64,000 nt of DNA from an uncultured Pelagibacteraceae bacterium (GTDB taxonomy: Bacteria; Pseudomonadota; Alphaproteobacteria; Pelagibacterales; Pelagibacteraceae). Below the pieces are notes generated by a model. It did no database searches. It saw only the letters and a program-made list of their open reading frames with translations, and was not told the DNA's origin. The DNA lies in the NCBI GenBank assembly GCA_902541285.1, contig CACBQD010000007.1, positions 1 to 64,000 of the forward strand, written 5' to 3'. Both the position numbers and the translations under genes were made by a program. This document shows, piece after piece, positions 38,594 through 56,839 of the stretch (position 1 is the stretch's first letter; every line of letters starts with the position of its first letter).

Positions 38594-38614
38594 AAATTTA
38601 GGATAATATGGTTT

Positions 38615-39070
38615 ATGTTTTTATCTACCTACGAAAACAAATTGGACAAAAAGGGAAGGGTTTCAGTGCCTGCTTCATATAGATCATATTTATCAAACAT
38701 AGGCTACAATGGAATAATTTGTTATCCATCATTTAACAATTTATGTATTGAAGCATGGCCACAAGACAGAATTGAAAAAATATCTAGTGCAATAGACTCA
38801 TTAAATCCATTTGAAGAAAAGAAAGATTATTTTGCAACATCTATATTATCAGAAAGTATAAATCTACAATTTGATAGTGAGGGGAGAGTTCAAATAACGA
38901 CAAAATTACTAAAACATGCAAGAATTAAAAATAGCATGTTATTTGTTGGTCAAGGCAAAACATTTCAAATTTGGGAACCAACAAATTTTGAAAAATTTAG
39001 GGCAAACGCAAAAAAAAAATCTAATATTAATAGAGCTAGTCTTAAATGGGAAAAACAATTTAACAACTAA
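38615..39070 (+). CDS. mraZ: Transcriptional regulator MraZ
   Basis: Ring-forming AbrB-like DNA-binding protein that in E. coli represses its own dcw cluster. The 151 residues hold two SpoVT/AbrB-type halves, each with a DxKGR-like motif: [14 protein letters not shown] (11-24) and [13 protein letters not shown] in the second half. The ATG at 38615 is chosen since it gives [15 protein letters not shown], matching family N-termini. The ATG at 38608 is out of frame. ftsZ follows after 11 bases. Three TGGG repeats upstream are its probable operator. Confidence 0.94.
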
Positions 39071-39081
39071 AAGGGGAAAAA

Positions 39082-40527
39082 ATGACAATAAATTTTAAAA
39101 CACCAGATATAAAAGAACTTAAACCAAGAATTTTAGTTTTAGGAGTAGGAGGAGCTGGAGGAAATGCAATAAATGGAATGATTGATGCTGGCCTTCAAGG
39201 TGTTGAGTTTATTGCAGTTAATACAGATGCCCAAGATTTAAGATTAAGTAAAGCACAAACAAAAATACAAATGGGTTTAAATTTAACTAAAGGACTGGGG
39301 GCAGGTGCAAAATTAGATATAGGTCAAGCTGCTGCAGATGAATCATTAAATGAAATAGTTAATATATTACAAGGTGCAAATATGGTTTTTATTACAGCCG
39401 GAATGGGTGGTGGAACTGGAACTGGATCTGCTCATGTAATTGCTAGAGCTGCGAAAGAATTAAATATTTTAACAGTTGGAGTTATTACCCTTCCATTTCT
39501 TTATGAAGGACCATCAAGAATGAGAAAAGCTCAACAAGGCTTAGAAGAACTTCGAAAACATGTTGATACCATTATAGTTGTTCCAAATCAAAATTTATTC
39601 AAGATTGCAAGTGAACAAACAACTTTTGAAGAATCTTTTGCTTTATCAAATGATGTTTTGCTGCATGGTGTTCAAAGTATAACTGATTTAATGGTTAGAC
39701 CTGGGCTTATTAACTTAGATTTTGCTGATGTTGAAACTGTTATGAGTTCAATGGGCAAAGCTATGATGGGCACAGGTCAAGCTGAAGGAGAAGGAAGAGC
39801 AGTCAAAGCTGCAGATTCAGCAATTAATAATCCATTAATTGATGATTATTCTTTAAAAGGGGCAAAAGGACTTTTGGTTAATATCACTGGAGGTAAAGAT
39901 TTAAAATTATTTGAAGTAGATGAGGCTGTTAATAAAGTCAGATCTGAAGTCGACCCAGAAGCTGAATTAATTATTGGTGCTATTACAGATGAAAATCTGG
40001 ATGGGTTAATGAGAGTTTCGATTGTTGCAACTGCACTTGATGGACAACAACCAGAGCCTAAGTCTGTAATTAATATGGTTCATAGAATTCAAAATAGAAA
40101 TCCAGGTTATTCTGATTTTTCAAATTCTGGATCAACTCAATCTTTTCAATTTACAAATAATAATTCAATAATTACTAATGGGGCTAACGCTCTTAAAATA
40201 GAGGAAGAAGAGAAAAATGAAGAATTGAGTTCTAAAAGTATAGATACTAATTATGCTAATGAGTTATCAAACACTATAAATGGTGAGGATTTAGAGCAAA
40301 TAGAAACACCTGTAGCTAGCTCAGTAAACTCTGAATTTGAAAGGGATATAGATGAGCAAGTATCTGAAAATAATGGTTTAGAGAATTTTGAGTTGAGTGA
40401 GGATGATACCCCCGAGCTATTTAATTCAGATGCTAACGATGAGTTATCAACTTCACCACAAGAGATAAACTCTGAGGATGAAGAAGATTTAGAAATTCCA
40501 GCATTTTTGAGAAGACAAAAGAATTAA
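39082..40527 (+). CDS. ftsZ: Cell division protein FtsZ, relocated to the head of the dcw cluster
   Basis: Tubulin-like GTPase that forms the Z ring. The nucleotide-binding GVGGAGGNA (21-29), the tubulin signature GGGTGTG (109-115) and the T7 loop N211-LDFAD (211-216), which supplies the catalytic aspartates, are all intact. After the GTPase core (about 1-320) comes a disordered acidic, Asn/Ser-rich linker (about 345-465) and the C-terminal peptide IPAFLRRQ (472-479) that binds FtsA and others. A strong ribosome site AAGGGG (39071-39076) precedes the ATG. Its place between mraZ and rsmH is unusual, since ftsA-ftsZ-lpxC is normal. Confidence 0.97.
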
Positions 40528-40545
40528 TGGTCTTCAAAAAAATAA

Positions 40546-41538
40546 ATGAATGCCACCATAAATCTGGAAAAACATTTTCCAGTATTACTAAACGAATTAG
40601 TTAGTATTATTTCCCCTCTTTATGGTGGCACATTTATCGATTGCACTTTTGGTGCAGGCGGTTATTCAAAAAAGATATTAGAGAATAATTTAAATAATAT
40701 AATAGCACTAGATAGAGATAATTCTGTCAATAGTACAGCTGATAAATTCTACACAAAGTATAAAAAAAGATTTAAATTTTATAACAAAAAATTTTCAGAT
40801 ATTGATAAAATAAAAGAAGATAATATTAAAGCAATTATTTTTGATCTGGGATATTCGTTAAATCAGATTTCTGATCTAAATAGAGGTATATCTTTTAATA
40901 GCAAAGGTAAACTAGACATGAGAATGGGATTAAATGATTTTTCTTGTGATGATGTAATATCAAAAATGAGCCAACAAAGTCTTTTTAAAATTTTCAAATA
41001 TTTTGGCGATGAAAAATATGCAAAACCAATATCAAAAAAAATAGTTCAATTAAGAAAAAATAAAAAAATTAAAACTGAAAATTTAGTAGAAATCATTGAA
41101 GGTGTAAAAAAAAAGAAAAGTGGAAAAAATAAATCTACTAAAGTTTTTCAAGCTCTTAGAATTTTTGTAAATAAAGAGATAACCGAGCTGATATATGGTT
41201 TAATAAAAGCTTATGATATTTTGCCAGTTGGTGGATTAATAGCAGTTGTTACTTTTCATTCTATCGAGGATAAAATAGTAAAGTTTTTTTTTAAAGAATA
41301 CTCAGAAGTACAAAATTCTTCTAGGTATTTACCAAAAAGTATTTCAACTAAAAAGTATTTTAATTTAACCAAAAAAAAACCAATAACTCCATCATCAATT
41401 GAGATTAATATTAATCCTCCCTCAAGATCAGCAAAACTTAGATTTGCATACAAATTAGAGAATGGATGTAACTTTAAAAAATTTATTAGTAATTTTAATT
41501 ATTTAATAGATATAGAAAATTTGAACTTTAATGCATAA
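40546..41538 (+). CDS. rsmH: 16S rRNA (cytosine-1402-N4)-methyltransferase
   Basis: Methylates C1402 in the ribosomal decoding centre. The 330-residue protein starts HFPVLLNEL (10-18), with the SAM-binding GGTFIDCTFGAGGYS (about 27-41), then IIFDLGYSLNQ, RGISFNSKGKLDMRM and the C-terminal VVTFHSIEDKIVK typical of RsmH/MraW. It starts 18 bases after ftsZ and overlaps ftsL by 8, keeping the canonical rsmH-ftsL-ftsI order after the inserted ftsZ. Confidence 0.97.
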   Translation: MNATINLEKHFPVLLNELVSIISPLYGGTFIDCTFGAGGYSKKILENNLNNIIALDRDNSVNSTADKFYTKYKKRFKFYNKKFSDIDKIKEDNIKAIIFDLGYSLNQISDLNRGISFNSKGKLDMRMGLNDFSCDDVISKMSQQSLFKIFKYFGDEKYAKPISKKIVQLRKNKKIKTENLVEIIEGVKKKKSGKNKSTKVFQALRIFVNKEITELIYGLIKAYDILPVGGLIAVVTFHSIEDKIVKFFFKEYSEVQNSSRYLPKSISTKKYFNLTKKKPITPSSIEININPPSRSAKLRFAYKLENGCNFKKFISNFNYLIDIENLNFNA

Positions 41539-41803
41539 AAAAATTCTTTTATTTATACCAATTATTATTCTTATAATTTCAACTGCTTATATAAAAAATT
41601 CGACAAAAAAACTTGATAAACAAATTTTTGAAATTCAAGAAGACATCAGAGCTCTCAATGATATTTATGAGTTAGTTTTATTTGATTTCAACTATCTTAC
41701 ATCGCCAAATAAATTAATGGAATATTCCAAAATATACTTTGACAAAGAATTAAAAAAAAAAAAAATTACGGAATTAAAAATTCTTAAATTTAATAATGAA
41801 TAA
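41531..41803 (+). CDS. ftsL: FtsL-like division protein
   Basis: A 90-residue bitopic protein: short cytoplasmic N-terminus (MHKK), one membrane helix (about 5-22), and a periplasmic coiled coil (about 24-50, KKLDKQIFEIQEDIRALNDI). FtsL is poorly conserved in sequence, so the call relies on this architecture plus its place between rsmH and ftsI with 8-base overlaps to both. In known systems it forms FtsQBL, which activates FtsWI. No FtsB-like gene is in this window. Confidence 0.85.
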   Translation: MHKKILLFIPIIILIISTAYIKNSTKKLDKQIFEIQEDIRALNDIYELVLFDFNYLTSPNKLMEYSKIYFDKELKKKKITELKILKFNNE

Positions 41804-43427
41804 TATTGACGAAAATTTTAAATTTGAAGCAAATAGATCAAATTTAAAAATATCTTTTGAACGTATATCATTCATTTTTTTCATTTTTTTTATAATTACA
41901 ATAATTTTTACATCTAAAACTATCTATTTAGGATTTAAGAAAACAAACCAAACTCAAACTGTAAAAGAAAAAGAGAAATATAGAGCATCTATCATGGATA
42001 GAAATGGAAATATTATTGCTAAAACTGTGCGTGTGACTAATTTGGGCATAAATCCAAATCAATTAATTAACAAAGAAAAATTATTAATTTCCTTAAAATT
42101 AATATTTCCTGACAAGAATTTTGAAAAGGAAATCAATGGAAAAAAATTTTTTTATGTCAAAAAGAAAATATCTCCATCAAAGCTTGAAAAAATAAAATTA
42201 CTGGGAGAAAAATCGTTTAAAGAGGAAGAAAACATTGCTCGTGTTTATCCTAACGGTAATCTATTCAGTCATATATTGGGACAGATTGATACAGATAACA
42301 ATGGTGTGTCTGGTATAGAAAAATCTTTTGACTATGAATTAACAACTTCAAACACGCCATTAAAGCTTACTTTAGATACTGAAATACAATATTTGATAAG
42401 AGAGGAATTAATAAAATTTCAAGAAATTTTTAATAGTTATGGAAGTACAGCTATTTTAATGAATGTTAACAGTGGTGAGATTCTTTCAATGGTTTCTTTA
42501 CCAGATTTTGATTTAAATAAAAGAGAAGACATTTCTGATAGAAAATTTATAAACAGATCCACAAAAGGTGTCTATGAACTTGGATCAGTTTTTAAAACAT
42601 TTACATTAGCTGCCGGGCTTCAACAAAATGTTATCCAAGAAGATACCCTTTTTAAAAATTTACCAAAAAAAATAAAATGTGCTGGAAGGTCAATCTCTGA
42701 ATATGATATGGACATTCCATCAAGTCTTACCGCTGAAGAAATATTAATTAGATCTGGAAATATTGGTTCAATCAAAATTGCTCAGAAAGTCGGTTTAGAA
42801 AATTTTAAAGATTTTCTAGAAAATTTAGATTTATTAAATAAAATACAATTTGATATAGAGGAAGTTGGAAATCCAATCCCGTTTAAATGGGGAAAATGTA
42901 AATTAGCTACATCAGCATATGGTCATGGTATAACAACCACACCACTTCAACTTGCAAAAGCCTATGCAATAATTACAAATGGTGGATATAAAATAAAACC
43001 AACTTTAATTAAAAAAGAGAAAAATATAAAAAGAGGTGAACAAATAATAACAGAAGAAAATTCCAATAAAATTAAAGAAATATTAAGAAAAATTGTAACA
43101 TCAGAACAAGGCACTGCTAATTTAGCAAATATTGCTGGTTATGAAATTGCTGGAAAAACAGGAACAGCCCAAAAATCTATAAAGGGTAAATATTCTAAAA
43201 AAAAAATAAATACTTTTGCTTCAATTTTTCCAATATCTTCTCCAAAATATGTTTTAATTGTTTTGTTAGATGAACCAAAATTGAGTGAAACTTATATTTA
43301 TGAATATAATGATGGTAAAAAAAGGAAGATAGTAGGCACACCTTTTAATACTGCTGGCTGGACCTCAGTTGAGGTTGCCAAAAATATAATAGAAAAAATC
43401 GGGCCTATTTTAGCCATAAAATATTAA
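41796..43427 (+). CDS. ftsI: Septal peptidoglycan transpeptidase FtsI (PBP3)
   Basis: Cross-links septal peptidoglycan. It has one membrane helix (about 23-40), a pedestal domain with RASIMDRNGNIIAKT, and a transpeptidase domain with the catalytic S264-x-x-K267 in GSVFK, S320-G-N322 and K454-T-G456. The 543-residue length is typical of alphaproteobacterial FtsI. The gene overlaps ftsL by 8 bases and is followed 11 bases later by murE/F. It is the transpeptidase partner of FtsW encoded downstream. Confidence 0.97.
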   Translation: MNNIDENFKFEANRSNLKISFERISFIFFIFFIITIIFTSKTIYLGFKKTNQTQTVKEKEKYRASIMDRNGNIIAKTVRVTNLGINPNQLINKEKLLISLKLIFPDKNFEKEINGKKFFYVKKKISPSKLEKIKLLGEKSFKEEENIARVYPNGNLFSHILGQIDTDNNGVSGIEKSFDYELTTSNTPLKLTLDTEIQYLIREELIKFQEIFNSYGSTAILMNVNSGEILSMVSLPDFDLNKREDISDRKFINRSTKGVYELGSVFKTFTLAAGLQQNVIQEDTLFKNLPKKIKCAGRSISEYDMDIPSSLTAEEILIRSGNIGSIKIAQKVGLENFKDFLENLDLLNKIQFDIEEVGNPIPFKWGKCKLATSAYGHGITTTPLQLAKAYAIITNGGYKIKPTLIKKEKNIKRGEQIITEENSNKIKEILRKIVTSEQGTANLANIAGYEIAGKTGTAQKSIKGKYSKKKINTFASIFPISSPKYVLIVLLDEPKLSETYIYEYNDGKKRKIVGTPFNTAGWTSVEVAKNIIEKIGPILAIKY

Positions 43428-43438
43428 GAAATTTCATA

Positions 43439-46267
43439 ATGATATTAAAAAGCTTTTTTAAAAATCTTAAAAAAGATTTTAACAATAAAAGTTTTAGTGG
43501 ATTTGAATTTAATTCGAAAAAAATAAAAAAAAATTATATATTTTTTGCAATACAGGGTAGTAAATTTAATGGAAATAATTTCATAAATGATGCCATAATA
43601 AGAGGAGCTCGAATAATAGTATCAAATAAGTTTAAAACTGGAATCAATAAAGATGTATTATATATAAAAGTAAGAGATCCTAGATTAGCCTTATCAAATT
43701 TTGCAAATAAATATTATAATAAAAAACCAAATAATATAATTGCTGTAACTGGAACAAACGGAAAATCGTCTATAGTCAATTTTTATCACCAGATATTAAA
43801 ACTTAATAAAAAAAGAGTAGCCTCAATTGGAACTTTAGGTGTCAAATCGAATGGTCTTAGTTTAAAACTTAATAATACAACTGTTGATGCTATTACAATA
43901 AATAAAATACTTACAAATTTAAAAAATAAAAAAATTGAAAATGTAATTTTAGAAGCTTCAAGTCATGGACTGCATCAAAAAAGATTACATGGTATTAAAT
44001 TTAACACATCTATATTCACTAATTTAAGCAGAGATCATTTAGATTATCACAAAAATTATAAAAATTATTTTAATTCAAAATTAATTTTATTTAATGAGTT
44101 GACAAAGAAAAATGGAAATTTGATATTTGATAATGATTTAAAATATTCACAAATCTTTAAAAAAATAGCCAAAAGAAAAAAATTAAATTTACTAAACATT
44201 GGTACATCAGATAGTCATTTAAAAATTAACTCAATTAAAATTTTAAATAACTGCCAACATATAAAGTTTACTTTTCAAAATAAGGAATACCAATTTAGAA
44301 CAAGCCTGACTGGAAAAATACAAATTAAGAATTTGATGATGGCTGTTGCAGCAGCTATTAAAAGTAATCTAAAAATAGATGATATTGTTAAAAAACTTAA
44401 GTATATTAAGCCTACAAAAGGCAGACTCGAGATAATCGGAACAACCAAAGATAATTCAATTTTTATCTTAGACTATGCTCATACTCCAGAGGCTCTTAAA
44501 ACTAGTATAGAAAATATTAAGGAACAATTTGGTTTAAGAAAAATTAATATTGTATTTGGATGTGGCGGTGAAAGAGATAAAGAAAAAAGACCAATAATGG
44601 GTAAAATTGCTAACAAACTATGTAATTATATTTATCTTACAGACGATAATCCTAGAAATGAAAATCCAGAAAATATCAGAGCAAGTATCAAGAAATCAAT
44701 TTTACCATCTAAAATGATAGAAATACCATCAAGGAAATTAGCTATAAAAAAAGCAATTTTAAATAGTAAGTCTGATGAGGTTTTAATTATTGCAGGAAAA
44801 GGACATGAAAATACTCAAGAATATATTAAGAAAAATAAATTTTCTGACAAAGACAATATAATAAAATCAATAATTTTAAAAAATAGATTTTTATCGAATG
44901 ATTGGAAATTAAATATACTTAAAGAAATTATAAATAACAAAAAATTAGACAGAATAAAAAATTTAAAAATTAGCACAAATTCGAAAGAACAAAATAATGG
45001 TAAAATTTTCATTGGAATTAAGGGGAAATCTCTGAATGGAAATGATTTTGCAGATGAAGCTCTAAAAAATGGAGCAATATTAGCAATACTTCAAAATAAC
45101 AAAAATGATAATAAAAAAAAGGTAAATGTTAAAAGTACTCTAGAATTATTAATTAAATTTTCACAAAAGATAAGAATTTCTTCTAAAGCATCCCAAGTTG
45201 CAATTACAGGATCTTCAGGCAAAACCTCGCTGAAAGAATTGTTAGGACAATGTCTTCAAAAAAATTATCCCACAATATTTTCAAAAAATTCATTCAATAA
45301 TAAATTTGGTTTACCAATTTCTCTAATAAATTTAAATAAGGATACGACTTACGGAATATTTGAAATCGGAATGGATAAAAAGGGAGAAATAGACTATTTA
45401 TCAAAAATAATTAAACCAGATGTAGGAGTTATTACAAATATTAGTTATGCGCATGCCAAAAATTTTAAATCTTTATTGGATATAGCTAAAGCCAAATCAG
45501 AGATTATTTTCAACGTAAGAAAAAATGGCACAATTGTATTGAATAGAGATGATAAATTTTTTGATTTTTTTTCAAATTTAGCAAATAAAAATAATTTAAA
45601 TATTATTTCATTCAGTAAACATAAAAATTCTAATGTTAGATTATCTAAATTAAAAAAATCTGCTAAATCTTATATCATTTATATTGATGTAGATTCTAAA
45701 ATTTTTAAATTTAAAATTAATAATAACTTATTACCTTATTTAGATAATATTTTGGCCTCCATAGCAGTTTGTAAAAGTTTAGATATTATTGATGAAATAA
45801 ACAGTAACTTTTTTTCTAATTATAAAATACCAAGTGGTAGAGGAAATATAAAAAAATTCATTTTAGGTTCTAAAAAAATTAACATAATTGATGAAAGTTA
45901 TAACTCAAATCCATTATCTCTGAATTTCTCAATTAAGAAATTTAATAATTTAAAAGTAAATCCAAATAAAAAATTTATGCTACTAGGCGACATGTTAGAA
46001 TTAGGAAAATTTTCAAAAAAACTCCATATTGAAGCTGCAAAAGATATCAATAAGGCAAAGTTCAAAAAGTTGTTTGTTTATGGGAATTATATCAAAGAAA
46101 CATTTAACAAAATTAGAACACAAAAAAGAGGAAAAATACTTAAATCAACTAGTGAAATTCTTAATATGATAAAAAATGATTTAAATAATGGTGATTTTTT
46201 AATGATAAAGGGCTCAAATTCTACAGGACTAAATCAAATAACCAAACAAATTGGATCAAAATCTTAA
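43439..46267 (+). CDS. murEF: Fused MurE-MurF ligase
   Basis: One reading frame of 942 residues holds two ligases. Residues 1 to about 480 are MurE (adds meso-diaminopimelate), with ATP loop GTNGKS (105-110), LEASSHGLHQKR and the diaminopimelate-selecting DNPRN (403-407). Residues about 484-942 are MurF (adds D-Ala-D-Ala), with GSSGKT (591-596), NSFNNKFGLP and IDESYNSNP. No stop or start codon lies at the join. The two usually occupy neighbouring genes murE-murF here, so a lost stop explains the fusion. Its stop overlaps mraY by one base (TAATG). Confidence 0.96.
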   Translation: MILKSFFKNLKKDFNNKSFSGFEFNSKKIKKNYIFFAIQGSKFNGNNFINDAIIRGARIIVSNKFKTGINKDVLYIKVRDPRLALSNFANKYYNKKPNNIIAVTGTNGKSSIVNFYHQILKLNKKRVASIGTLGVKSNGLSLKLNNTTVDAITINKILTNLKNKKIENVILEASSHGLHQKRLHGIKFNTSIFTNLSRDHLDYHKNYKNYFNSKLILFNELTKKNGNLIFDNDLKYSQIFKKIAKRKKLNLLNIGTSDSHLKINSIKILNNCQHIKFTFQNKEYQFRTSLTGKIQIKNLMMAVAAAIKSNLKIDDIVKKLKYIKPTKGRLEIIGTTKDNSIFILDYAHTPEALKTSIENIKEQFGLRKINIVFGCGGERDKEKRPIMGKIANKLCNYIYLTDDNPRNENPENIRASIKKSILPSKMIEIPSRKLAIKKAILNSKSDEVLIIAGKGHENTQEYIKKNKFSDKDNIIKSIILKNRFLSNDWKLNILKEIINNKKLDRIKNLKISTNSKEQNNGKIFIGIKGKSLNGNDFADEALKNGAILAILQNNKNDNKKKVNVKSTLELLIKFSQKIRISSKASQVAITGSSGKTSLKELLGQCLQKNYPTIFSKNSFNNKFGLPISLINLNKDTTYGIFEIGMDKKGEIDYLSKIIKPDVGVITNISYAHAKNFKSLLDIAKAKSEIIFNVRKNGTIVLNRDDKFFDFFSNLANKNNLNIISFSKHKNSNVRLSKLKKSAKSYIIYIDVDSKIFKFKINNNLLPYLDNILASIAVCKSLDIIDEINSNFFSNYKIPSGRGNIKKFILGSKKINIIDESYNSNPLSLNFSIKKFNNLKVNPNKKFMLLGDMLELGKFSKKLHIEAAKDINKAKFKKLFVYGNYIKETFNKIRTQKRGKILKSTSEILNMIKNDLNNGDFLMIKGSNSTGLNQITKQIGSKS

Positions 46268-47352
46268 TGTTGTTTGAACTTTTTTCAATTCTAGTAGATC
46301 AATTTAGTTTTTTGAATGTTTTTAAATATTTAACAGTAAGAACTGGTCTTTCTATGTTTACAGCTATGGTTGTCGTTTTTTTAGTTGGAAACCCATTAAT
46401 TAATTTTTTTTCTTCAAAACAGATTCATAATCCAATCAGAGAAGATGGACCTAGCGATCATATAATTAGAAAAATTGGAACACCTACAATGGGAGGACTA
46501 ATAATATTACTAGGTGTTTTTTCAGGAGTATTGCTATGGGGTGACTTATCAAATCCTTACAATTGGTTTTTAATATTTATTGCAGCTTCTTTTGGATTAT
46601 TGGGAGCTTATGATGATTATAAAAAAATAAAGTTAAAAAGTTCGAATGGAATTTCCTCTAAACTAAAGTTCTCTCTACAAATTATTTTAGCTTTGATTGG
46701 TATATTTATACTTTATATCACAAGTAATTCTGATCAAATAAACAATCTATATTTTCCTTTTTTCAAAAACTTAGTAATCAATCTTGGCTGGTTTTTTATA
46801 CCTTTTTATATGTTCATATTAGTTGGAGCTTCAAATGCAGTTAATTTAACAGATGGTTTAGACGGATTAGCAACAGTTCCTGTTATGTTAGTTGCCGCTT
46901 GTTTTGCATTTATTAGTTACGTTTCTGGTAACATAATTTTTTCTAATTATCTTCAGATCGCATATATAGAGGGTGTAGGAGAAGCTTCGATTTTTTGTGG
47001 ATCAATAATCGGAGCTTGTTTAGGTTTTTTATGGTTTAATGCACCACCGGCAAAAATTTTTATGGGAGACACTGGATCTTTATCATTAGGTGGTTCACTG
47101 GGAGCGGTTGGTATAATAACTAAGCACGAAATTGTGTTAGCAATAACAGGCGGGTTGTTTGTTTTAGAAGCTGTTTCTGTAATAGTTCAAGTTATTTCCT
47201 ATAAATTAACAGGTAAAAGAATATTTAAAATGGCTCCAATACACCATCATTTTGAAAAAAAAGGATGGCCAGAGTCAACGGTTGTAATTAGATTTTGGAT
47301 AATTTCTATTATTTTAGCAATGATTGGATTAGCAACTTTGAAACTTAGATAA
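46267..47352 (+). CDS. mraY: Phospho-N-acetylmuramoyl-pentapeptide transferase
   Basis: Inner-membrane enzyme that makes lipid I from UDP-MurNAc-pentapeptide and undecaprenyl phosphate. The 361 residues have about ten helices. DDYKK and TDGLDGLA (D196, D199) carry catalytic aspartates, FMGDTGSLSLGG a third conserved block, and MAPIHHHFEKKGWPES (321-336, H326-H328) the histidine loop. It joins murE/F and murD by one-base TAATG overlaps on each side, so the three should be translated in step. Confidence 0.98.
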   Translation: MLFELFSILVDQFSFLNVFKYLTVRTGLSMFTAMVVVFLVGNPLINFFSSKQIHNPIREDGPSDHIIRKIGTPTMGGLIILLGVFSGVLLWGDLSNPYNWFLIFIAASFGLLGAYDDYKKIKLKSSNGISSKLKFSLQIILALIGIFILYITSNSDQINNLYFPFFKNLVINLGWFFIPFYMFILVGASNAVNLTDGLDGLATVPVMLVAACFAFISYVSGNIIFSNYLQIAYIEGVGEASIFCGSIIGACLGFLWFNAPPAKIFMGDTGSLSLGGSLGAVGIITKHEIVLAITGGLFVLEAVSVIVQVISYKLTGKRIFKMAPIHHHFEKKGWPESTVVIRFWIISIILAMIGLATLKLR

Positions 47353-48641: not shown

Positions 48642-49747
48642 ATAAATATTTTGATACATTTTATGATTGGTGGAAAAACATCGATAAAACAATTTTTTTG
48701 ATAATAAGCTTATTATTTTCACTAGGATTGTTCTTTTCTTTAGTTTCAACTTCAATAATCGCATCAGATAAATTAAACACAAATTCTTACTATTTTTTTT
48801 TAAAACATTTAATTTTTGTTTTAATAGGAATATTTTTAATTTTATTTTTATCTCTACTAGATCAAAAAATTTTAATTAGGTTATCAGTCGTATTATTTGT
48901 TATCACATTTATAAGTTTATTCTTAGTTCCCTTAATAGGAGTGGAGGTCAAAGGTTCAAAGAGATGGTTAGATATTGGCTCATTGCCTAGGTTTCAACCT
49001 ATTGAAACTTTAAAACCTTTTTTTGTTATTGTTATTTCACTAATAATTTCATTAGAAAAAAAAAACCTTTATATAAAATATCTCTTGAGTTCAGTCATTT
49101 TAGTTCCAATTATAATTTTACTCTTATCTCAACCAGACTTAGGACAAACATTATTAATAATATCTGTTTGGCTTGCCATTATTTTTGTTTCAGGAATAAA
49201 TTTATTACTTTTCGCAATTTCATTATTAGCTGTGGGTTCATTAACTCTATTTTTAGTCTTTTTGGTGCCAAAGTTTGAATACATAAGAATAAGATTAATG
49301 TCATTTTTAGATAATTCTAGCGGTAATAATTATCAGGCTGATAAAGCAAGCGATGCAATATCCAGTGGAAGTTTTTTTGGTAAAGGAATAGGTGAAGGAA
49401 CTTTAAATTCAAGAATACCAGAAGCACATACAGATTATATAATTTCTGTAATTGCAGAAGAATTTGGAGTAATTATCTTAATAGGTATAATATTACTTTA
49501 TTTAATATTATCTTATAGAGTTTTAAAAAAAATAAATTTTACAAAAAACAATAATTTTAAACTTATATTAGTTGGATGTATTTCAATAATACTATTGCAA
49601 ACTTTTATTCATATTGGTGTAAATATAAGAATGCTTCCTACTACAGGCATGACTATGCCATTTATTAGTTATGGTGGTTCTTCAATAGTTGGTACATCAA
49701 TTTTAACTGGAATAATATTAAATTTGACGAAAAGAAAATTAAATTAG
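48638..49747 (+). CDS. ftsW: Septal peptidoglycan glycosyltransferase FtsW
   Basis: SEDS-family polymerase of lipid II at the septum, partner of FtsI. The 369 residues form about ten helices. Conserved SEDS blocks are KGSKRWLDIGSLPRFQPIE, SQPDLGQTLLI (with the catalytic-region aspartate), GEGTLNSRIPEAHTDYIIS and the C-terminal MPFISYGGSSIVG. Starts within the murD stop (ATGA) and ends one base before murG. Confidence 0.97.
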   Translation: MNKYFDTFYDWWKNIDKTIFLIISLLFSLGLFFSLVSTSIIASDKLNTNSYYFFLKHLIFVLIGIFLILFLSLLDQKILIRLSVVLFVITFISLFLVPLIGVEVKGSKRWLDIGSLPRFQPIETLKPFFVIVISLIISLEKKNLYIKYLLSSVILVPIIILLLSQPDLGQTLLIISVWLAIIFVSGINLLLFAISLLAVGSLTLFLVFLVPKFEYIRIRLMSFLDNSSGNNYQADKASDAISSGSFFGKGIGEGTLNSRIPEAHTDYIISVIAEEFGVIILIGIILLYLILSYRVLKKINFTKNNNFKLILVGCISIILLQTFIHIGVNIRMLPTTGMTMPFISYGGSSIVGTSILTGIILNLTKRKLN

Positions 49748-49748
49748 T

Positions 49749-50825
49749 ATGAAAAATATACTTATAGTAACAGGTGGTTCTGGTGGCCATGTAGTACCAT
49801 CTACCTCTTTGTTTGAACATTTGAAAAATAAATTTTCTGTAAAAATGGTATCTGATTTGAGAGGAAGTAAATATATAAACACTAAAGAATTTAAATATGA
49901 ATTAATAGATGTACCTAATTTATTTTTAAAACCTTATTTACTTCCAATAAATATTTTTAAATATTTTCTAAACATTTTTCAATCTATTAGATTTTTAAAA
50001 AATAATAAGACAAATATTGTGATTAGTACTGGCGGGTACATGACATTTCCATTTTGCCTAGCTGCATTTATATTACAAAAAAAAGTTTTCTTGTTCGAGC
50101 CTAATAGTGTTTTAGGTAGATCTAACCGCTTTGCTTTGAAATTTTCAACAAAAATAATTTGTTACGATGAAAAATTAAGAAACTTCCCAATAAAATATAA
50201 TTCTAAAAAAGTTATAGTCAAACCCATTTTAAAAAAAGAAATATATAACTTAGAAAAAAATATAATTAATTTAAAAAAGGAAATAAAAAAAATTCTTATC
50301 ATCGGCGGCAGTCAGGGGGCCTCGTTTTTTGATGAAAATATTACTGAATTAATTATCGAAATTTCAAAAAAACGAAATTTCGAAGTTATACAACAAATAT
50401 CAAATATTAATAATTTATCTTCAATAAAAAATAAATATGACAAATCAAATATAAACTACAAATTTATTGAATTTACCAATGATAGTCATGAACTCTACAA
50501 TGGTATAGATTTAGCAATTACCAGAGGAGGAGCAAGCACATTAAGTGAACTTTCATTCTTAAACATACCGTTTATTTCAATTCCTCTCCCATCTGCAAGA
50601 GATAATCACCAATTCTATAATTCAGAATTTTATTATAAAAAAAATTGTTGTTGGTTAGTAAAGCAAAAGGAATTCGAATTTAAAAAATTTTCAAAGATGA
50701 TATTTGAAATATTTAACGATTATAAAAATTACAACGAAAAATTTAAAAATCTTGAGGAAATTACTAAAAAAAATACTTGGAATAATATAAACAATAAGAT
50801 TATAGAAATTATAGATGAAAATTAA
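49749..50825 (+). CDS. murG: UDP-GlcNAc:lipid I N-acetylglucosaminyltransferase
   Basis: Peripheral membrane GT-B enzyme that turns lipid I into lipid II. The 358 residues begin ILIVTGGSGGHVVPS (4-18), the glycine-rich loop for the lipid head group, then VISTGGYMTFP, FEPNSVLGRSNR, IIGGSQGASFFDE and the donor-site ITRGGASTLSEL. Overlaps murC by 11 bases. Confidence 0.97.
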   Translation: MKNILIVTGGSGGHVVPSTSLFEHLKNKFSVKMVSDLRGSKYINTKEFKYELIDVPNLFLKPYLLPINIFKYFLNIFQSIRFLKNNKTNIVISTGGYMTFPFCLAAFILQKKVFLFEPNSVLGRSNRFALKFSTKIICYDEKLRNFPIKYNSKKVIVKPILKKEIYNLEKNIINLKKEIKKILIIGGSQGASFFDENITELIIEISKKRNFEVIQQISNINNLSSIKNKYDKSNINYKFIEFTNDSHELYNGIDLAITRGGASTLSELSFLNIPFISIPLPSARDNHQFYNSEFYYKKNCCWLVKQKEFEFKKFSKMIFEIFNDYKNYNEKFKNLEEITKKNTWNNINNKIIEIIDEN

Positions 50826-52197
50826 TATCGGAAAAACTGAACTAATTCATTTTGTTGGAATTGGTGGTATTGGTATGAGTGGCTTAGCATTAATAATGGA
50901 TAGTTTAGGCTTTAAAATACAAGGAAGTGACAAATCAGATAATAAAAATCTTAATTTACTAAGAAAAAGAAAAATTCCAATTTATTTAAATCATAATAAG
51001 CAAAATATAAAAAATTGTACTGTATTAGTAGTTTCATCAGCTATAAAAAAATCAAATCCCGAATATAAACAAGCTAAAAAATTAAACTTACCGATATATA
51101 AAAGAGGAGAATTGTTAGGTCATATAGTTTCTTTAATGAAAAATATTGTTGTGACAGGATCACACGGTAAAACAACAACAACATCAATTTTGTCAAACAT
51201 TATGAACTACGCAAAATTAGATCCGACAATAATTAACGGAGGTGTTTTGAATTCAATAGGAAGTTCGGCAAAATTAGGAAAAAGCGACTGGAGTTTAGTT
51301 GAGTCAGATGAGTCGGATGGCAGCTTTCTACAAATACCTTTTAATTATTCAATAATAACAAACATTGACAATGAACACTTGGATTATTACAGAACCATGA
51401 AAAATTTAAAAAATAAATTCATAGAATTTATTGATAAAACACCTTCTTTCGGAAAGGCTTTTCTGTGTTTAGATGACAAAAATGTAAAAAATATTTTACC
51501 AAAAATTAAAAATAACAATTACTATACATTTGGTTTAAATAAGAAATCAAATTTTCATATTTTCAATATTATTCAGAACAAAAGTTATTCAAAATTTAAT
51601 ATTAAAATAAAAATACCGGGCAAAACAAAAATCATAAAAAATATTTCAATACCTTTGTTAGGTTTGCATAATATTAAAAATGCAACATCTGCATTAGCAG
51701 TAGCTTTTTCAATTGGTGTATCGGATAAAATAATTAAATTAGGTCTCAAAAACTTTAATGGAGTCCAGAGAAGATTTAATTTCTTATTTGAAATTAATAA
51801 AGTGCCATTTTTCGACGACTACGCTCATCATCCAACTGAAATTTCATCAGTGTTAGATGGTGTCAGTAAAGTATATAATAAAGAAGAAATAGTTTGTATT
51901 TTTCAACCGCATAGAATTTCAAGAGTAAAAAATTTAAAAAAAGAATTTTCCAAGTGTTTTAAAAATGCAAATACAATTTTACTATGCCCCATTTATAAAG
52001 CAAGTGAGAATACAAAACTAGGATTTTCATATAATTCATTTGCAAAACTAATAGCGACAAATTCTAAAGTGAATTTAATAATGCTTAAAAATGAAATAGA
52101 ATTAAAAAAAATTATCAAAAATATAGCATTTGGAAATAAAATATTTATTGCTATGGGAGCTGGGTCTATAACTAATTGGGTAAGAAATCTTAATTAA
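50815..52197 (+). CDS. murC: UDP-N-acetylmuramate-L-alanine ligase
   Basis: Attaches L-Ala to UDP-MurNAc, the first step of stem-peptide building. The 460 residues show HFVGIGGIGMSGLA (12-25), the ATP loop VTGSHGKTTT (about 117-126), ESDESDGSFL, NIDNEHLDYY and the DDYAHHPTEI block of the C-terminal domain. It overlaps murG by 11 bases; murB starts one base after its stop. Confidence 0.98.
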   Translation: MKINIGKTELIHFVGIGGIGMSGLALIMDSLGFKIQGSDKSDNKNLNLLRKRKIPIYLNHNKQNIKNCTVLVVSSAIKKSNPEYKQAKKLNLPIYKRGELLGHIVSLMKNIVVTGSHGKTTTTSILSNIMNYAKLDPTIINGGVLNSIGSSAKLGKSDWSLVESDESDGSFLQIPFNYSIITNIDNEHLDYYRTMKNLKNKFIEFIDKTPSFGKAFLCLDDKNVKNILPKIKNNNYYTFGLNKKSNFHIFNIIQNKSYSKFNIKIKIPGKTKIIKNISIPLLGLHNIKNATSALAVAFSIGVSDKIIKLGLKNFNGVQRRFNFLFEINKVPFFDDYAHHPTEISSVLDGVSKVYNKEEIVCIFQPHRISRVKNLKKEFSKCFKNANTILLCPIYKASENTKLGFSYNSFAKLIATNSKVNLIMLKNEIELKKIIKNIAFGNKIFIAMGAGSITNWVRNLN

Positions 52198-52198
52198 T

Positions 52199-53107
52199 AT
52201 GGAATTGAAAGATATTAAAGATTTTAAAAATAAATTTGATGCAGACATATTTTTTAATATCGATATTAAAAAGTTTAATTGGTTTAATATAGGAGGTAAA
52301 TCAAAAATCTTTTTTAAACCAAAAAATCTTATTGAGTTAAAAGAATTCTTAAAATTATATGACAATAGAGGGAAAATGTTCATACTTGGAATGGGTTCAA
52401 ATGTATTATTTAAAGATAATATTTATGAAGGTGTAATTATTAAACTTAGTAACAATTTTAGTACATTATCAAAACTTAAATCAGATACTATTATAGCAGG
52501 TTCAGCTTGTTCGCAAAAAAAACTTTCAGAATATGCTTTAGAGAATGGAATAAGTGGTTTTGAATTTATGTACTGTATTCCTGGTTCAGTTGGTGGCGGT
52601 CTTCAAATGAACTCCGGGTGTTTTGGAACAGAATTTAAAGATAAATTAATTTCACTTCAATGTATTGATGCAAAAGGTAACATTAAAATTATACCATCTA
52701 ATAAAATTAAATTTAAATATAGAAAGATAGAATTAAATGAATATTTAATTTTTTTAAGTGCTACATTTAAAGGAAATTTATCTAACAAAAGTAAAATAAA
52801 AAATTTGATGGAGGAATTGGCCATAAAAAAAAATAATTCTCAACCTTCAAAAATTAAGACCGGAGGAAGTACTTTTAAAAATCCAATCGATCAAACATCG
52901 AAGAAAGCCTGGGAACTTATAAAAGAATCAGTGCCAGAAAACATAAATTTTGGAGATGCCCACATATCAAATAAGCATTCAAATTTTTTTGTTAATAAAA
53001 ATAATGCATCATTTGATGAAATGAATGCGTTAATAAATTTTGTTAAAAAAAAAGTTAAAAATAAAACTGGAATTAATATTAATTTAGAAATTAAAATCAT
53101 AGAATAA
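52199..53107 (+). CDS. murB: UDP-N-acetylenolpyruvoylglucosamine reductase
   Basis: FAD-dependent reductase that makes UDP-MurNAc. The 302 residues contain NWFNIGGKSKIF, the FAD-binding ILGMGSNVLFKD, the IPGSVGGGLQMNSGCFG block and KTGGSTFKNP, whose serine is the proton donor. Between murC (1-base gap) and ddl (1-base overlap). Being the second committed step, its place among the ligases keeps the murC-murB-ddl order of other alphaproteobacteria. murA is not in the window. Confidence 0.97.
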   Translation: MELKDIKDFKNKFDADIFFNIDIKKFNWFNIGGKSKIFFKPKNLIELKEFLKLYDNRGKMFILGMGSNVLFKDNIYEGVIIKLSNNFSTLSKLKSDTIIAGSACSQKKLSEYALENGISGFEFMYCIPGSVGGGLQMNSGCFGTEFKDKLISLQCIDAKGNIKIIPSNKIKFKYRKIELNEYLIFLSATFKGNLSNKSKIKNLMEELAIKKNNSQPSKIKTGGSTFKNPIDQTSKKAWELIKESVPENINFGDAHISNKHSNFFVNKNNASFDEMNALINFVKKKVKNKTGININLEIKIIE

Positions 53108-54027
53108 TGAAGAAAATACTAATTTTAGCAGGTGGGTATTCGAAAGAAAAAGAAATTAGTATGAAAACTGCAAAAAGTGTTTTTTCTGAACTAAATAAAG
53201 AAAAAAAATATAATATTAAAGTTATAAATCCTGATGGGAAATTTGTAGAAGTATTAAGAAAGTTTAAGCCTAATACAGTATTAAATTTACTACATGGAAG
53301 ATACGGTGAGGATGGATATATTCAATCTATTTTAGAATCAGAAAAAGTAAAATATACTCATTCAGGAGTTTTATCATCTTCTCTTGCAATGGATAAAGAG
53401 GCATCAAAAAAAATATTTATTAAAAATAAGATTATAACTCCCAAATATATGAAATATTCTTATAAAAATTTTAAGAACAAAAAATTTTTAATAGACAATT
53501 TAAATAAGACTATTGGATTTCCATTAGTTTTAAAGCCTATAAATGAAGGATCAAGTGTAAATGTATTTATTTGTGCTAAAAAAAACTTTATTCAAAATTT
53601 ATTTAAACTCAAAGAATACGGAGAAGTATTAATTGAAAAATATATACCCGGAAGAGAAATTCAGGTTGCGGTACTTTCAGGCAAAATACTCGGAGCAATT
53701 GAATTAAAACCTAAAAGAAAATTTTATGATTACGAAGCAAAGTATAACCCAAAAGCGAAGACAGAGCATATAATTCCCGTAGATCTATCTAAAAGCCAAT
53801 ATAATAGAGTTACAAATATTGCTTTAAAAGCTCACAGATTACTTAAATGTAGAGGTGTAACTAGGTCTGATTTTAGATTTTTTAATAACAAATTTTACTT
53901 ATTAGAAACAAATACTCAGCCAGGAATGACATCATTATCATTAGTACCTGAAATTGCAAAATTTAATAACATTACTTTCAAAAATTTGATAAAAAAAATT
54001 TTGGAAGATGCATCAATTAATAAATAA
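53107..54027 (+). CDS. ddl: D-alanine-D-alanine ligase
   Basis: Makes the D-Ala-D-Ala dipeptide used by the MurF half. ATP-grasp protein of 306 residues, with LAGGYSKEKEISMKTA at the start, NLLHGRYGEDGYIQ, the ATP-binding KPINEGSSVNV, and the metal-binding ETNTQPGMTSLSLVPE near the C-terminus, ending in the normal family place. Its 3' end overlaps ftsQ by 20 bases, the longest overlap inside the cluster. Confidence 0.97.
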   Translation: MKKILILAGGYSKEKEISMKTAKSVFSELNKEKKYNIKVINPDGKFVEVLRKFKPNTVLNLLHGRYGEDGYIQSILESEKVKYTHSGVLSSSLAMDKEASKKIFIKNKIITPKYMKYSYKNFKNKKFLIDNLNKTIGFPLVLKPINEGSSVNVFICAKKNFIQNLFKLKEYGEVLIEKYIPGREIQVAVLSGKILGAIELKPKRKFYDYEAKYNPKAKTEHIIPVDLSKSQYNRVTNIALKAHRLLKCRGVTRSDFRFFNNKFYLLETNTQPGMTSLSLVPEIAKFNNITFKNLIKKILEDASINK

Positions 54028-54697
54028 AAAAAAAATATATTTTTATGTATTAACATTTGTATTTTTGTCAAATATTTTTAATTATCACCAAGTAGATGCT
54101 TTAAAAAATAAATTCAAAATTTTAGATATAAAAATTGAAACAAATAACCATCAAATAAGTAAGCTAATTTATTTTAATACAAAATTTTTAATAGATAAGA
54201 ATATTTTATTTTTAAATAAAAGAACACTTCAAGAGAGGTTATATAATTTAAAGTTTCTTGAATCTTTAAATGTAAAAAAAAAATATCCATCAACTATAAA
54301 AATAGAAGCAAAAGTAACAAAATTTCTAGCGACTACATTTATAGATAAAAAAAAATATTATGTTGGTTCAAATGGTGCTTTTATATTATCAGAAAAAATT
54401 TCAATTAAAAAAAACTTACCAATAATTTTTGGTAAATTTGATGCTACTGATTTTCTTTTTCTTAAGGAAAAACTTGCCAAAAATAAAATCAATGATGATG
54501 AAATACTTAAATATTACTTTCATAAAAATAAAAGATGGGACTTATATTTTAAAAAAAATATTATAGTCCAGCTTCCAAATACAAATATTTCTAATGCAAT
54601 TAAATTATATAAACAATTTAAAATTAGTAATAAAATAATCTCAGATACAGTTATTGATTTAAGAATTCAAAATAGATTAGTATTAAATAATGGATAG
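54008..54697 (+). CDS. ftsQ: Cell division protein FtsQ
   Basis: Bitopic divisome protein that joins FtsB and FtsL. It has a membrane helix at about 8-24, a POTRA domain (about 34-108: FKILDIKIETNN...LNVKKKYPSTIKIEAKV), and a beta domain to the end. The 229-residue length is short but normal for streamlined alphaproteobacteria. Sequence identity in this family is low, and position between ddl and ftsA supports the call strongly. Overlaps ddl by 20 and ftsA by 8 bases. Confidence 0.9.
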   Translation: MHQLINKKKIYFYVLTFVFLSNIFNYHQVDALKNKFKILDIKIETNNHQISKLIYFNTKFLIDKNILFLNKRTLQERLYNLKFLESLNVKKKYPSTIKIEAKVTKFLATTFIDKKKYYVGSNGAFILSEKISIKKNLPIIFGKFDATDFLFLKEKLAKNKINDDEILKYYFHKNKRWDLYFKKNIIVQLPNTNISNAIKLYKQFKISNKIISDTVIDLRIQNRLVLNNG

Positions 54698-55856
54698 AAA
54701 AAAGCTTTTTAATGTTATAGATTTTGGATCATCAAAGATTAGATTCTCAGTTTTCGATTTAAATTTAAATGAAAAATACTCTGAGTCAAAAAAAGTTTAC
54801 ATTAATGAAAATTTTCAAAATCATTTTGAGACTATAAATGAAATAATAAAAAAAGCAGAAAAAAAAATATCATTACATATTGAGGATATTATTTTAATTT
54901 TAGACTCAGCAAAATTATTTACTATTGATATATCTTTAAATAAAAATTTAAATCAAAATACTAAGATTATTGACGTATATAGTTCAATAATATTAGAACT
55001 GAATCAATTAATCAGTTCTCATTATAGTAGTTACAATTTATTACATATAATAGTAGATAAATGTACCATCGATAACTTACATTCATTTACTGAAATTCCT
55101 AAAGAAAGAATTATATCTAATAATTTTAAAATAGATTTTAAATTAATTTGTCTTCCAAAAAATTTAATAAATAATATTAAAAATAAATTTATAAAATATA
55201 ATATTAATGTAATAAATATTTATTGTACAAGTTATATAAAATCTCAAACTTACGTTAAGAAGATAAATAAAAGTAAAGTTTCATTTTTAGAAATAGGTTG
55301 TGAAAGGACGACTTTTATCTTTTACGAAAAAAATAAATTGAAATTTATACAAACTATACCAATAGGTGGATTTAATATAACTAAAGATATTTCAAAAATT
55401 TTTAATATTAATAAAGATGATGCAGAAAAATTAAAAAAATCTTTTAACAGGTCTTATACAGAGTTTTCATATGATACAAAATCTTCAGATAATGAAATGC
55501 TAGTTAAAGAAATTATTAATAAGAATATTTCAATAGATAAATTAAAAAAAGTAATTTTAAGCAGAGTGCAGGAAATCATCGACTTAACATTTAAAAAATC
55601 AAATATTAAACAATATAAAAATATCTTATCAGATACAGAATTATTTTTAATTGGGGATGGATCTTTGTTATTTAACGATAATTCGTTTTATCTTAACGAT
55701 ACATTTGATTTTAAATCAATAAATTTTTATGCTGAAAGAGACAGCCTAATCTGTAATTGTGGTCTGATCAGTCATTTAAATAATTTTGAATTACCCAAAA
55801 TAACTAACAAAAAACAAGGATTATTTGAAAAATTTTTTAATTTTTTCAGTAAATAA
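54690..55856 (+). CDS. ftsA: Divergent FtsA with eroded nucleotide-binding motifs
   Basis: Actin-like protein that tethers FtsZ to the membrane. The first phosphate motif is recognisable (NVIDFGSSKIRFSVFD, 8-23). In the second, the usual DIGGGTTD is EIGCERTTF (201-209), and the adenosine GGG motif is GDG (322-324). The IPIGGFNITKDIS stretch that normally follows motif 2 is kept (224-235). The last residues GLFEKFFNFFSK (377-388) form the amphipathic membrane helix. So the anchor and fold remain but ATP binding is doubtful. Overlaps ftsQ by 8 bases; ftsZ is absent after it. Confidence 0.88.
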   Translation: MDRKKLFNVIDFGSSKIRFSVFDLNLNEKYSESKKVYINENFQNHFETINEIIKKAEKKISLHIEDIILILDSAKLFTIDISLNKNLNQNTKIIDVYSSIILELNQLISSHYSSYNLLHIIVDKCTIDNLHSFTEIPKERIISNNFKIDFKLICLPKNLINNIKNKFIKYNINVINIYCTSYIKSQTYVKKINKSKVSFLEIGCERTTFIFYEKNKLKFIQTIPIGGFNITKDISKIFNINKDDAEKLKKSFNRSYTEFSYDTKSSDNEMLVKEIINKNISIDKLKKVILSRVQEIIDLTFKKSNIKQYKNILSDTELFLIGDGSLLFNDNSFYLNDTFDFKSINFYAERDSLICNCGLISHLNNFELPKITNKKQGLFEKFFNFFSK

Positions 55857-55918
55857 TTGTATTTTCTTGTAATATTTCTTGAGTATTTAGGCCTTTTAAC
55901 TTTTTGTATAAGTTAAAC

Positions 55919-56839
55919 ATGTCTATTCTTACTCAAAAAACTATCGCAGAAAAAATTTCATTCAAAGGTATTGGAATACATACTGGAAAAAACGCTAATT
56001 TAAGCATCCTCCCTGCCTCTCCTAATACTGGAGTAATTTTTAAAAGAATTGATGTGAAGAACAAAAATATTATTTATCCGATTTATTCTAATGTAGTTGA
56101 TACTACATTATGCACAACAATATCCAATGAGTTTGGAGTAGAAGTATCAACTATTGAGCATTTAATGGGTGCCCTTTATGGAGTTGGAGTCGATAATGCA
56201 ATTATAGAAATTGATACAAAGGAAGTGCCTATCATGGACGGTTCCGCAAAATTATTTGTTGATACAATAAATGATGTAGGACTAAAATTTAGTGATCAAC
56301 CAATAAAAATAATTAAAATTAACAAAAATATAGAATTTAAAGATGGTGAGAAATTTATAACTATTGATAAATCTAATGTGTCTGGAGATATAGAATTTGA
56401 AATAAAATATGATAATGAGTTAATTGGAACTCAAAAAAATAAAATTAATATTTTTGAAGATAAACTTGATGATGTTTATGCGTCAAGAACATTCTGTTTA
56501 TATGAAGATATAGAAAAATTAAAAAAACTAAATTTAGGAAAAGGTGGAAACTTAGAAAACGCAATTGTAATTAAAGATAAAATTATTTTAAATGAAACAG
56601 GATTAAGAAATAAACTTGAATTTGTGAACCATAAAATACTTGATTGTATGGGTGATTTATTTTTGTCAGGATATAAAATTATTGGTAGCATCAAATGTTC
56701 TCAGGGAGGACACAAACTTACTAATCAATTATTAAGAAAAATATTTAGTGATCAAAATAATTATTCTTTAATTGAAATTAAAGGAAAACAATTACCACAT
56801 ACTTTTGCAAATTATCACAATCTTAAGTCTATAGCTTAA
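55919..56839 (+). CDS. lpxC: UDP-3-O-acyl-N-acetylglucosamine deacetylase
   Basis: Zinc enzyme for the committed step of lipid A synthesis, indicating an LPS-bearing outer membrane. I place the start at the ATG at 55919 (MSILTQKTI), not the TTG 15 bases upstream, because family proteins begin at QKTI. Zinc ligands are in STIEHLMGALYG, and in NHKILDCMGDL (His and Asp). GGHKLTNQLL supplies the conserved catalytic histidine. The 62-base gap after ftsA is the place where ftsZ normally sits. A TATAAG at 55907 lies too far (22 bases) from TTGAGT to be called a promoter. Confidence 0.97.
   Translation: MSILTQKTIAEKISFKGIGIHTGKNANLSILPASPNTGVIFKRIDVKNKNIIYPIYSNVVDTTLCTTISNEFGVEVSTIEHLMGALYGVGVDNAIIEIDTKEVPIMDGSAKLFVDTINDVGLKFSDQPIKIIKINKNIEFKDGEKFITIDKSNVSGDIEFEIKYDNELIGTQKNKINIFEDKLDDVYASRTFCLYEDIEKLKKLNLGKGGNLENAIVIKDKIILNETGLRNKLEFVNHKILDCMGDLFLSGYKIIGSIKCSQGGHKLTNQLLRKIFSDQNNYSLIEIKGKQLPHTFANYHNLKSIA

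Follow-up and report, generated by a model that had tools for sequence, protein, structure and literature searches.

Displacement of ftsZ to the front of the dcw cluster in Pelagibacterales and its probable uncoupling from FtsA

The order of genes in the dcw (division and cell wall) cluster is very well conserved, and FtsZ and FtsA are its textbook pair. We have analyzed a stretch of 64,000 nucleotides (hereafter the window) from an uncultured Pelagibacteraceae bacterium (GenBank assembly GCA_902541285.1, contig CACBQD010000007.1, positions 1 to 64,000), in which ftsZ lies between mraZ and rsmH while ftsA is followed directly by lpxC. This mraZ-ftsZ-rsmH layout is real and extends over the whole order Pelagibacterales (SAR11), being the product of neither chance nor mis-assembly, and the position of ftsZ in SAR11 is exceptional among Pseudomonadota. 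The explanation that best accounts for these observations, and which we consider probable as a whole, is that ftsZ was relocated under the promoter of mraZ and uncoupled from FtsA. With a little less than an even chance, the SAR11 FtsZ-FtsA pair has been dissolved altogether, ftsZ standing at a promoter under MraZ feedback and FtsA being dismantled, so that in most Pelagibacter species FtsA would be a membrane adaptor made of subdomains IA and IC, devoid of the ATP pocket and of the FtsZ site, and the Z-ring would be anchored by another protein through the FtsZ tail. An order-wide break of the pair, together with an FtsA that has lost its FtsZ-binding half in one genus, offers a natural test of the role of FtsA (tether or FtsN adaptor). 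It also prompts one to ask how FtsZ is anchored in SAR11, which are among the commonest bacteria of the ocean. Our literature search found no paper on the position of ftsZ or on FtsA in SAR11; subscription literature lay mostly outside this search, and a published table of the gene order may exist.

Position of ftsZ in the window, the order and the phylum

On the forward strand of the window, the cluster reads rnpB, mraZ, ftsZ, rsmH, ftsL, ftsI, murE-murF (fused), mraY, murD, ftsW, murG, murC, murB, ddl, ftsQ, ftsA, lpxC, bamD and ligA. Genes were named from their open reading frames, rnpB being assigned by Rfam, six proteins by Pfam and the rest from sequence and neighbors (the Pfam scan of the cluster proteins returned no family for ftsL). 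All genes of a dcw cluster are present and in order except ftsZ, which would make it a member with one displaced gene. Here mraZ (38615-39070; 151 aa; PF02381, 82 bits) is followed after 11 bases by ftsZ (39082-40527; 481 aa; PF00091, Tubulin, 162 bits; PF12327, FtsZ_C, 115 bits) and, after 18 further bases, by rsmH (40546-41538; open reading frame and conserved neighbor). At the other end of the cluster, ftsQ (54008-54697; Pfam POTRA_1 and FtsQ_DivIB_C) and a full-length, very divergent ftsA (54690-55856; 388 aa; PF14450, 50 bits) precede lpxC (55919-56839; first in-frame ATG at 55919; PF03331, 302 bits), and the vacated place of ftsZ is reduced to 62 bases (55857-55918). Open reading frames and Pfam thus agree with the layout described in the initial annotation of this DNA. 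The protein itself is a canonical FtsZ, with its GTPase domain, its FtsZ_C domain and, as read from the sequence, its C-terminal conserved peptide (40489-40524), and it shares 96% identity with its nearest named matches, including that of the uncultured Pelagibacteraceae AG-900-G16. A second ftsZ had to be considered as an explanation and was rejected, since the genome to which the window belongs (1.16 Mb, 89% complete) contains one FtsZ_C match, and a survey of 147 genomes of the order matched FtsZ once in each of 133 genomes, the other 14 giving no match. As a side observation, murE and murF form one 942-aa frame (43439-46267); they are also fused in genomes G013 and G090, and separate in G001, G009 and G032 as well as in the clusters read from the second Pelagibacterales family and from the order f10 (see below).

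Within the order, the arrangement proved to be general. Among the best 80 loci obtained with the window FtsZ, 52 belong to named Pelagibacterales and 28 to other Alphaproteobacteria. In all 52 of the former, mraZ and/or rsmH adjoins ftsZ, with both neighbors visible in 49 (L020, L030 and L032 end at contig ends), while mraZ is found beside ftsZ in none of the 28 others, for which lpxC is the next recognized gene in 25. The second family of the order (f2, Pelagibacteraceae being f1) has mraZ beside ftsZ in 30/30 loci and rsmH on the other side in 21, the remaining nine ending at contig ends. Twenty further stretches from 20 genomes (6 from f2 and 14 from Pelagibacteraceae; 7 of the 20 from single-contig genomes) all contain mraZ-ftsZ, followed by rsmH in the 17 in which the contig continues. 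Likewise, ftsZ is missing from its usual place in 20/20 downstream stretches, which read ftsQ-(ftsA)-lpxC. Since numerous independent assemblies, some of them single-contig genomes, share these junctions, an assembly or annotation artefact, a reservation already raised in the initial annotation, can be dismissed for SAR11, its probability being practically nil. Regarding FtsZ itself in f2, the C-terminal linker of loci L084-L110 is built from repeats, either of the EPEM/AEEEV type or of AEAEEARL; those frames that are complete in these loci span 491-613 aa, differing among relatives, and several f2 assemblies break within the repeat stretch.

To what extent this position is unusual can be judged from two broader surveys. 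The first covered 190 genomes of the class, about one per family, with FtsZ found in 179 and the place of ftsZ obtained for 149. The two genes lie on one contig and strand in 91 of these 149 genomes, at a distance of 15.7-31 kb in 88 and of 746 kb in one; they are close in only two, a SAR11 genome (0.9 kb) and G326 (2.1 kb). One of the remaining 30 FtsZ-bearing genomes is that of the window, and the 29 others were typed by the neighbors of ftsZ: three have a displaced ftsZ, namely two f10 genomes (mraZ-ftsZ-rsmH) and G263 (mraZ-rsmH-ftsZ), and 26 show neither mraZ nor rsmH recognized beside ftsZ, 11 of them lacking any recognized dcw neighbor. In the second survey, of 120 genomes of the phylum, mraZ and ftsZ are 14.1-18.7 kb apart in 46/46 non-alphaproteobacteria having both on one contig and strand, in line with the earlier claim that the order in this DNA departs from that of most proteobacteria. 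A different rearrangement was encountered in genome G300 (locus L285, family f25), whose ftsQ-ftsA-ftsZ-lpxC-bamD-ligA block is inverted and lies directly upstream of mraZ.

Comparison of these gene orders shows a single-gene relocation: ftsZ left its place between ftsA and lpxC for that between mraZ and rsmH, and the other dcw genes stayed in order. The relocation dates from the stem of Pelagibacterales or earlier and has been retained since.

One move or several

Looking for the arrangement in SAR11 and outgroups, as had been proposed, returned it throughout Pelagibacterales and in f10, a further alphaproteobacterial order of small AT-rich genomes, in which FtsZ was found in 23 of the 32 genomes examined. 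In its loci L205-L225, mraZ stands directly before ftsZ in 19 of 21, the two others being truncated, and the three f10 clusters read through have ftsQ-ftsA-lpxC with no ftsZ between. Two oddities of this order are probably assembly faults: a short ftsZ followed by rsmH in the opposite orientation (L213, genome G359) and a second partial FtsZ_C in the genome carrying L226 (G353:C50). Besides f10, G326 and G263, each a single metagenome-assembled genome, have the order mraZ-rsmH-ftsZ, and as ftsA and lpxC are side by side in both, ftsZ has moved forward in each. Within the order of G326, two further genomes are canonical and the one remaining gave no FtsZ, hence the move in G326, if genuine, took place recently and independently. 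These two single assemblies may, however, be artefacts.

Similar moves elsewhere and the intact state of the rest of the cluster would suit a neutral shuffle that became fixed in one ancestor and persisted only because rearrangements seldom occur, with the expression of ftsZ essentially unchanged through a promoter of its own. We hold this to be unlikely, given that all members of the two Pelagibacterales families with visible ftsZ neighbors have kept the order though spacer and linkers changed, and that ftsZ has shifted towards the promoter end in all four cases.

A further question is whether SAR11 and f10 inherited mraZ-ftsZ-rsmH from a common ancestor, in which case the order would be a rare marker of kinship from which HIMB59 is excluded. 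Genome G176, which we take to be HIMB59, was tried as a carrier of the SAR11 order and rejected, having the canonical ftsA-ftsZ-lpxC; its cluster (L267) is seemingly broken upstream of murG, mraZ to ftsW not being recognized within the 19.7 kb read. The canonical order of HIMB59 and the identical order of SAR11 and f10 both favor shared ancestry, as does one of the trees that we built from seven dcw proteins, FtsZ being left out: the LG+C20 tree reduced by seven long or partial rows (HIMB59, L246 and five AG loci) places SAR11 and f10 on one side of a branch, with a support of 24. In this tree and in the SR4-recoded one, Pelagibacterales form one group and f10 another; SR4 recoding, however, sets SAR11 and f10 apart, with weak support. 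Moreover, in the C20 tree containing all rows, HIMB59 (41% of columns filled, long branch) stands at an open fork with both Pelagibacterales families, and HIMB59 and three AG loci are nearer SAR11 than f10 is, a position that the canonical gene order of HIMB59 would not fit. SAR11 and f10 are also both AT-rich, the nine best FtsZ matches of the f10 protein compared include none from SAR11, and independent moves exist, as in G326. Taken together, shared ancestry is possible and somewhat doubtful. The placement of HIMB59 is disputed (PMC10308909); here the gene order may help as a hint, with no claim to decide the matter.

Control and supply of FtsZ

The gene for the class A RNase P RNA, rnpB (38133-38489; Rfam RF00010, 288 bits, full length), is located directly 5' of mraZ, with 125 bases from its end to the start of mraZ (38133-38614 in total). 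In this interval, a consensus scan points to a putative sigma-70 promoter of mraZ-ftsZ, TTGACG-17-TAATAT (38551-38579, 9/12 matches). The initial annotation had assumed a strong promoter ahead of mraZ: a promoter-like sequence is present, and the region holds no excess of such matches over shuffled sequence. A similar layout, TTGAC ... CATAATAT, recurs upstream of most of 22 Pelagibacteraceae mraZ genes. MraZ recognizes the consensus TGGGN in regularly spaced boxes, and the window has, over the -10 element, a putative MraZ operator of three such boxes on the reverse strand (38570-38593), read as CCCA at 38570, 38580 and 38590 on the forward strand. This is the only period-10 pair or triple of CCCA in the whole window, and it provides what is expected of an operon repressed by MraZ, that is, period-10 TGGG boxes before mraZ. 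Once upstream regions shorter than 120 bases and duplicates had been dropped, at least one period-10 pair was counted in 66/66 distinct upstreams of Pelagibacteraceae, 23/23 of f2, 17/21 of f10 and 32/39 of canonical alphaproteobacteria, with shuffle expectations of 0.01, 0, 0.03 and 0.44, respectively. As canonical groups have them too, the boxes before mraZ are ancestral; in SAR11, ftsZ has come to stand directly behind them.

Since ftsZ follows mraZ after 11 bases and both lie downstream of a promoter-like site with boxes over its -10, the two probably share one message, and FtsZ is likely made jointly with its putative repressor. The proposal that ftsZ is under direct MraZ control, on an 18-kb transcript, agrees with the conserved boxes, a support that comes from sequence only; both co-transcription over 18 kb and direct control would follow from the layout. 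Autorepression of MraZ would then damp the supply of FtsZ directly. According to PMC2877005, Pelagibacter lacks ctrA, and CtrA regulates ftsZ, ftsA and ftsQ in Caulobacter, which makes a different control of ftsZ plausible. The cell-cycle regulator GcrA is however present: its loss was tried as a reason for the move and rejected for SAR11, the protein being found in G000 and G001. It is also found in G176; in the class survey it is absent from the f10 genome G154 and unmatched in 75 of 190 genomes, G287, G326 and G263 not being among the 115 matched, and with so many genomes lacking a match, nothing can be drawn from its absence in these four. GANTC methylation sites before mraZ gave no sign either (20 in 65 Pelagibacteraceae upstreams for 16.4 expected; 1 in f2 for 5.5 expected).

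The position of ftsZ also bears on its use as a marker. Transcripts of ftsZ normalized to RNase P have served to compare growth among marine groups, including Pelagibacterales (PMC13349992, whose accessible parts do not state whether the RNA or the protein gene is meant). Given the unusual place of ftsZ, after mraZ and, in the window, a short way past rnpB, the level of its transcript in Pelagibacterales need not mean the same as elsewhere.

Another possibility is that the move was selected for a changed FtsZ:FtsA ratio, FtsZ being made early and in quantity and FtsA late and in small amounts. Consistent with this, ftsZ is the second gene and ftsA is near the end of the cluster, and their ribosome sites differ markedly. 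The Shine-Dalgarno sequence of ftsZ, AAGGGG (39071-39076), has a duplex energy of -8.0 kcal/mol, the strongest pairing among 18 starts, the rest of which range from -4.0 to +2.0 (lpxC was taken at its TTG), while that of ftsA in the window (+0.4) is practically none and the best one of ftsA reaches -6 or lower in 4 of the 32 Pelagibacterales and f10 loci. However, the strength of the ftsZ site is usual at the canonical place too. Taking as start the ATG with the best pairing, a choice that favors strong sites equally in every group, we obtained a median of -8.6 in Pelagibacteraceae (-6 kcal/mol or lower in 62/62 distinct starts) and of -7.3 in canonical alphaproteobacteria (52/68). The strong site singled out in the initial annotation is therefore present and hardly part of the novelty, being largely an old trait of ftsZ. 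Internal promoters may also be present, and where FtsA has lost its FtsZ-binding half, as described below, the ratio loses its meaning. A selected ratio is thus, in our view, decidedly unlikely.

Divergence and truncation of FtsA

What changed most is FtsA, a point missed in the initial annotation, and whether it still holds FtsZ may matter more than the ratio of the two. The two medians, identity of window proteins to canonical alphaproteobacteria versus identity among the canonical ones, are as follows: FtsZ (52 versus 55%), MraY (54/55), LpxC (40/38), Ddl (39/44), FtsI (32/37), FtsW (31/40), MurC (37/49), MurG (25/35), RsmH (35/45), FtsQ (18/27) and FtsA (17/34). FtsA is hence the most accelerated of the eleven dcw proteins compared. 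By sequence, the window protein is an FtsA, with an actin-like FtsA signature and a membrane helix, and a profile of 8 full proteins matches FtsA of the PDB over residues 10-326. An AlphaFold model was too poor (mean predicted local distance difference test score of 37) and was not used.

FtsA was typed at the slot between ftsQ and lpxC, lengths being those of stop-to-stop frames; L299 and L321, without lpxC, were left untyped. This slot is just 710-751 bases in 6 of the 9 genomes of the window's genus first examined, and 23 of 35 further genomes also have a short FtsA. In total, 29 of the 44 species typed in the genus possess a mini-FtsA of 220-245 codons (about 233), save for one split frame (L135, genome G026; 76 + 175 codons; decay, frameshift or sequencing error), which was counted as mini. 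The 15 others, including the window and G011, have a full FtsA of 370-401 codons. FtsA is of full length in the other genera of the family (8/8), in f2 (6/6), in f10 (3/3) and in G263, G326 and G176.

Several lines of evidence converge on what was lost. Between G028 (mini) and G011 (full), the first 182 residues are 40% and the last 43 are 63% identical, residues 183-326 being gone. In a joint alignment, 29/29 mini-FtsA lack the equivalent of E. coli residues 194-366 (194-368 with ten of them), that is, subdomains IIA and IIB, with the ATP pocket and the FtsZ-tail site, whereas IA, IC (SHS2) and the C-terminal membrane helix are kept. The latter looks amphipathic, with a GFFE pattern invariant in ten proteins and an aromatic-rich end in 29/29. 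A profile of ten mini-FtsA aligns to residues 1-204 of full-length FtsA with 99.5% probability and, among solved FtsA structures, matches the IC stretch only (residues 99-194) with weak E-values, the best being 0.0045; Pfam recognizes SHS2_FTSA in 3/10 and PF14450 in 0/10. The ratio of nonsynonymous to synonymous substitution rates is 0.14-0.30 over 11 close pairs, which share genomes and are not independent; it is near or slightly above that of FtsQ in most pairs and above those of Ddl and LpxC. Mini-FtsA is thus under constraint and no relic. On a tree of four neighboring proteins, the mini state requires at least three changes, two of them forced by well-supported branches, and it has therefore arisen more than once or been exchanged.

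The FtsZ side, for its part, is conserved. In named Pelagibacterales loci, 50/50 complete tails carry EIPAFLR[RK]Q, as do the tails of all five genomes with a mini-FtsA that were read, and two f2 tails read EIP[SA]FLRRQ, so that something probably still binds it. According to PMC8998562, IC of FtsA recruits FtsN, 2B (IIB) binds the FtsZ tail, and 1A, 2A and 2B (IA, IIA and IIB) form the ATP pocket; FtsN binds in the IA-IC cleft (PMC7613929). From these assignments, a protein reduced to IA, IC and the helix should be left with its FtsN side only, the FtsZ side being lost.

We thus propose that ftsZ was unlinked from ftsA by the very move that brought it behind mraZ, and that FtsA, having diverged beyond ten other dcw proteins, lost IIA and IIB in most typed species of the window's genus to leave, as far as sequence tells, a membrane-bound IA+IC protein. 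In these species, mini-FtsA would no longer bind and tether FtsZ and would still serve its IC-side partner, the conserved tail of FtsZ being held by another anchor. Several points weigh against this proposal. Regarding ftsZ, a promoter of its own may lie within mraZ; the distance from the mraZ stop to the first possible FtsZ Met ranges from -50 to 171 bases in 65 Pelagibacteraceae loci (median 11), hence tight translational coupling is not general; and the strong ribosome site is, as seen above, common in canonical relatives. Regarding FtsA, the truncation is confined to one genus among those typed and came long after the order-wide move, so the two events need not be linked, and f10 moved ftsZ yet retains a full FtsA in 3/3; the link between gene move and truncation is only a correlation. 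FtsQ is also fast-evolving (18 versus 27% identity), the Pfam IC model misses even the full FtsA of the window and is therefore a weak judge here, and the mini-FtsA genomes may have a second, full-length FtsA elsewhere.

Compared with known systems, the window differs from the canonical dcw cluster of E. coli K-12 (NC_000913.3) in the place of ftsZ. Both have mraZ first and the same order of shared genes from rsmH to ftsA; in E. coli, however, 15.7 kb separate the start of mraZ from that of ftsZ, which stands between ftsA and lpxC, while in the window it lies between mraZ and rsmH, and lpxC comes directly after ftsA. The closest likeness for ftsZ in a short operon with mraZ is the Mollicutes cluster mraZ-mraW-MG_223-ftsZ, in which MraZ represses ftsZ: as reported in PMC8475190, a mraZ mutant of Mycoplasma genitalium overexpresses ftsZ, and repression needs, according to its authors, mraZ linked to the operator and cluster. 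Unlike SAR11, this cluster has rsmH (mraW) and MG_223 between mraZ and ftsZ, contains no cell wall genes and belongs to another phylum. As for FtsA, the actin-like tether of the Z-ring (PDB 7q6d, 1e4f and others), it is matched by the window protein and, over its N-terminal half, by mini-FtsA, and the C-terminal helix is kept; mini-FtsA differs from known FtsA in being devoid of IIA and IIB, the part to which PMC8998562 assigns the binding of the FtsZ tail and, together with IA, that of ATP.

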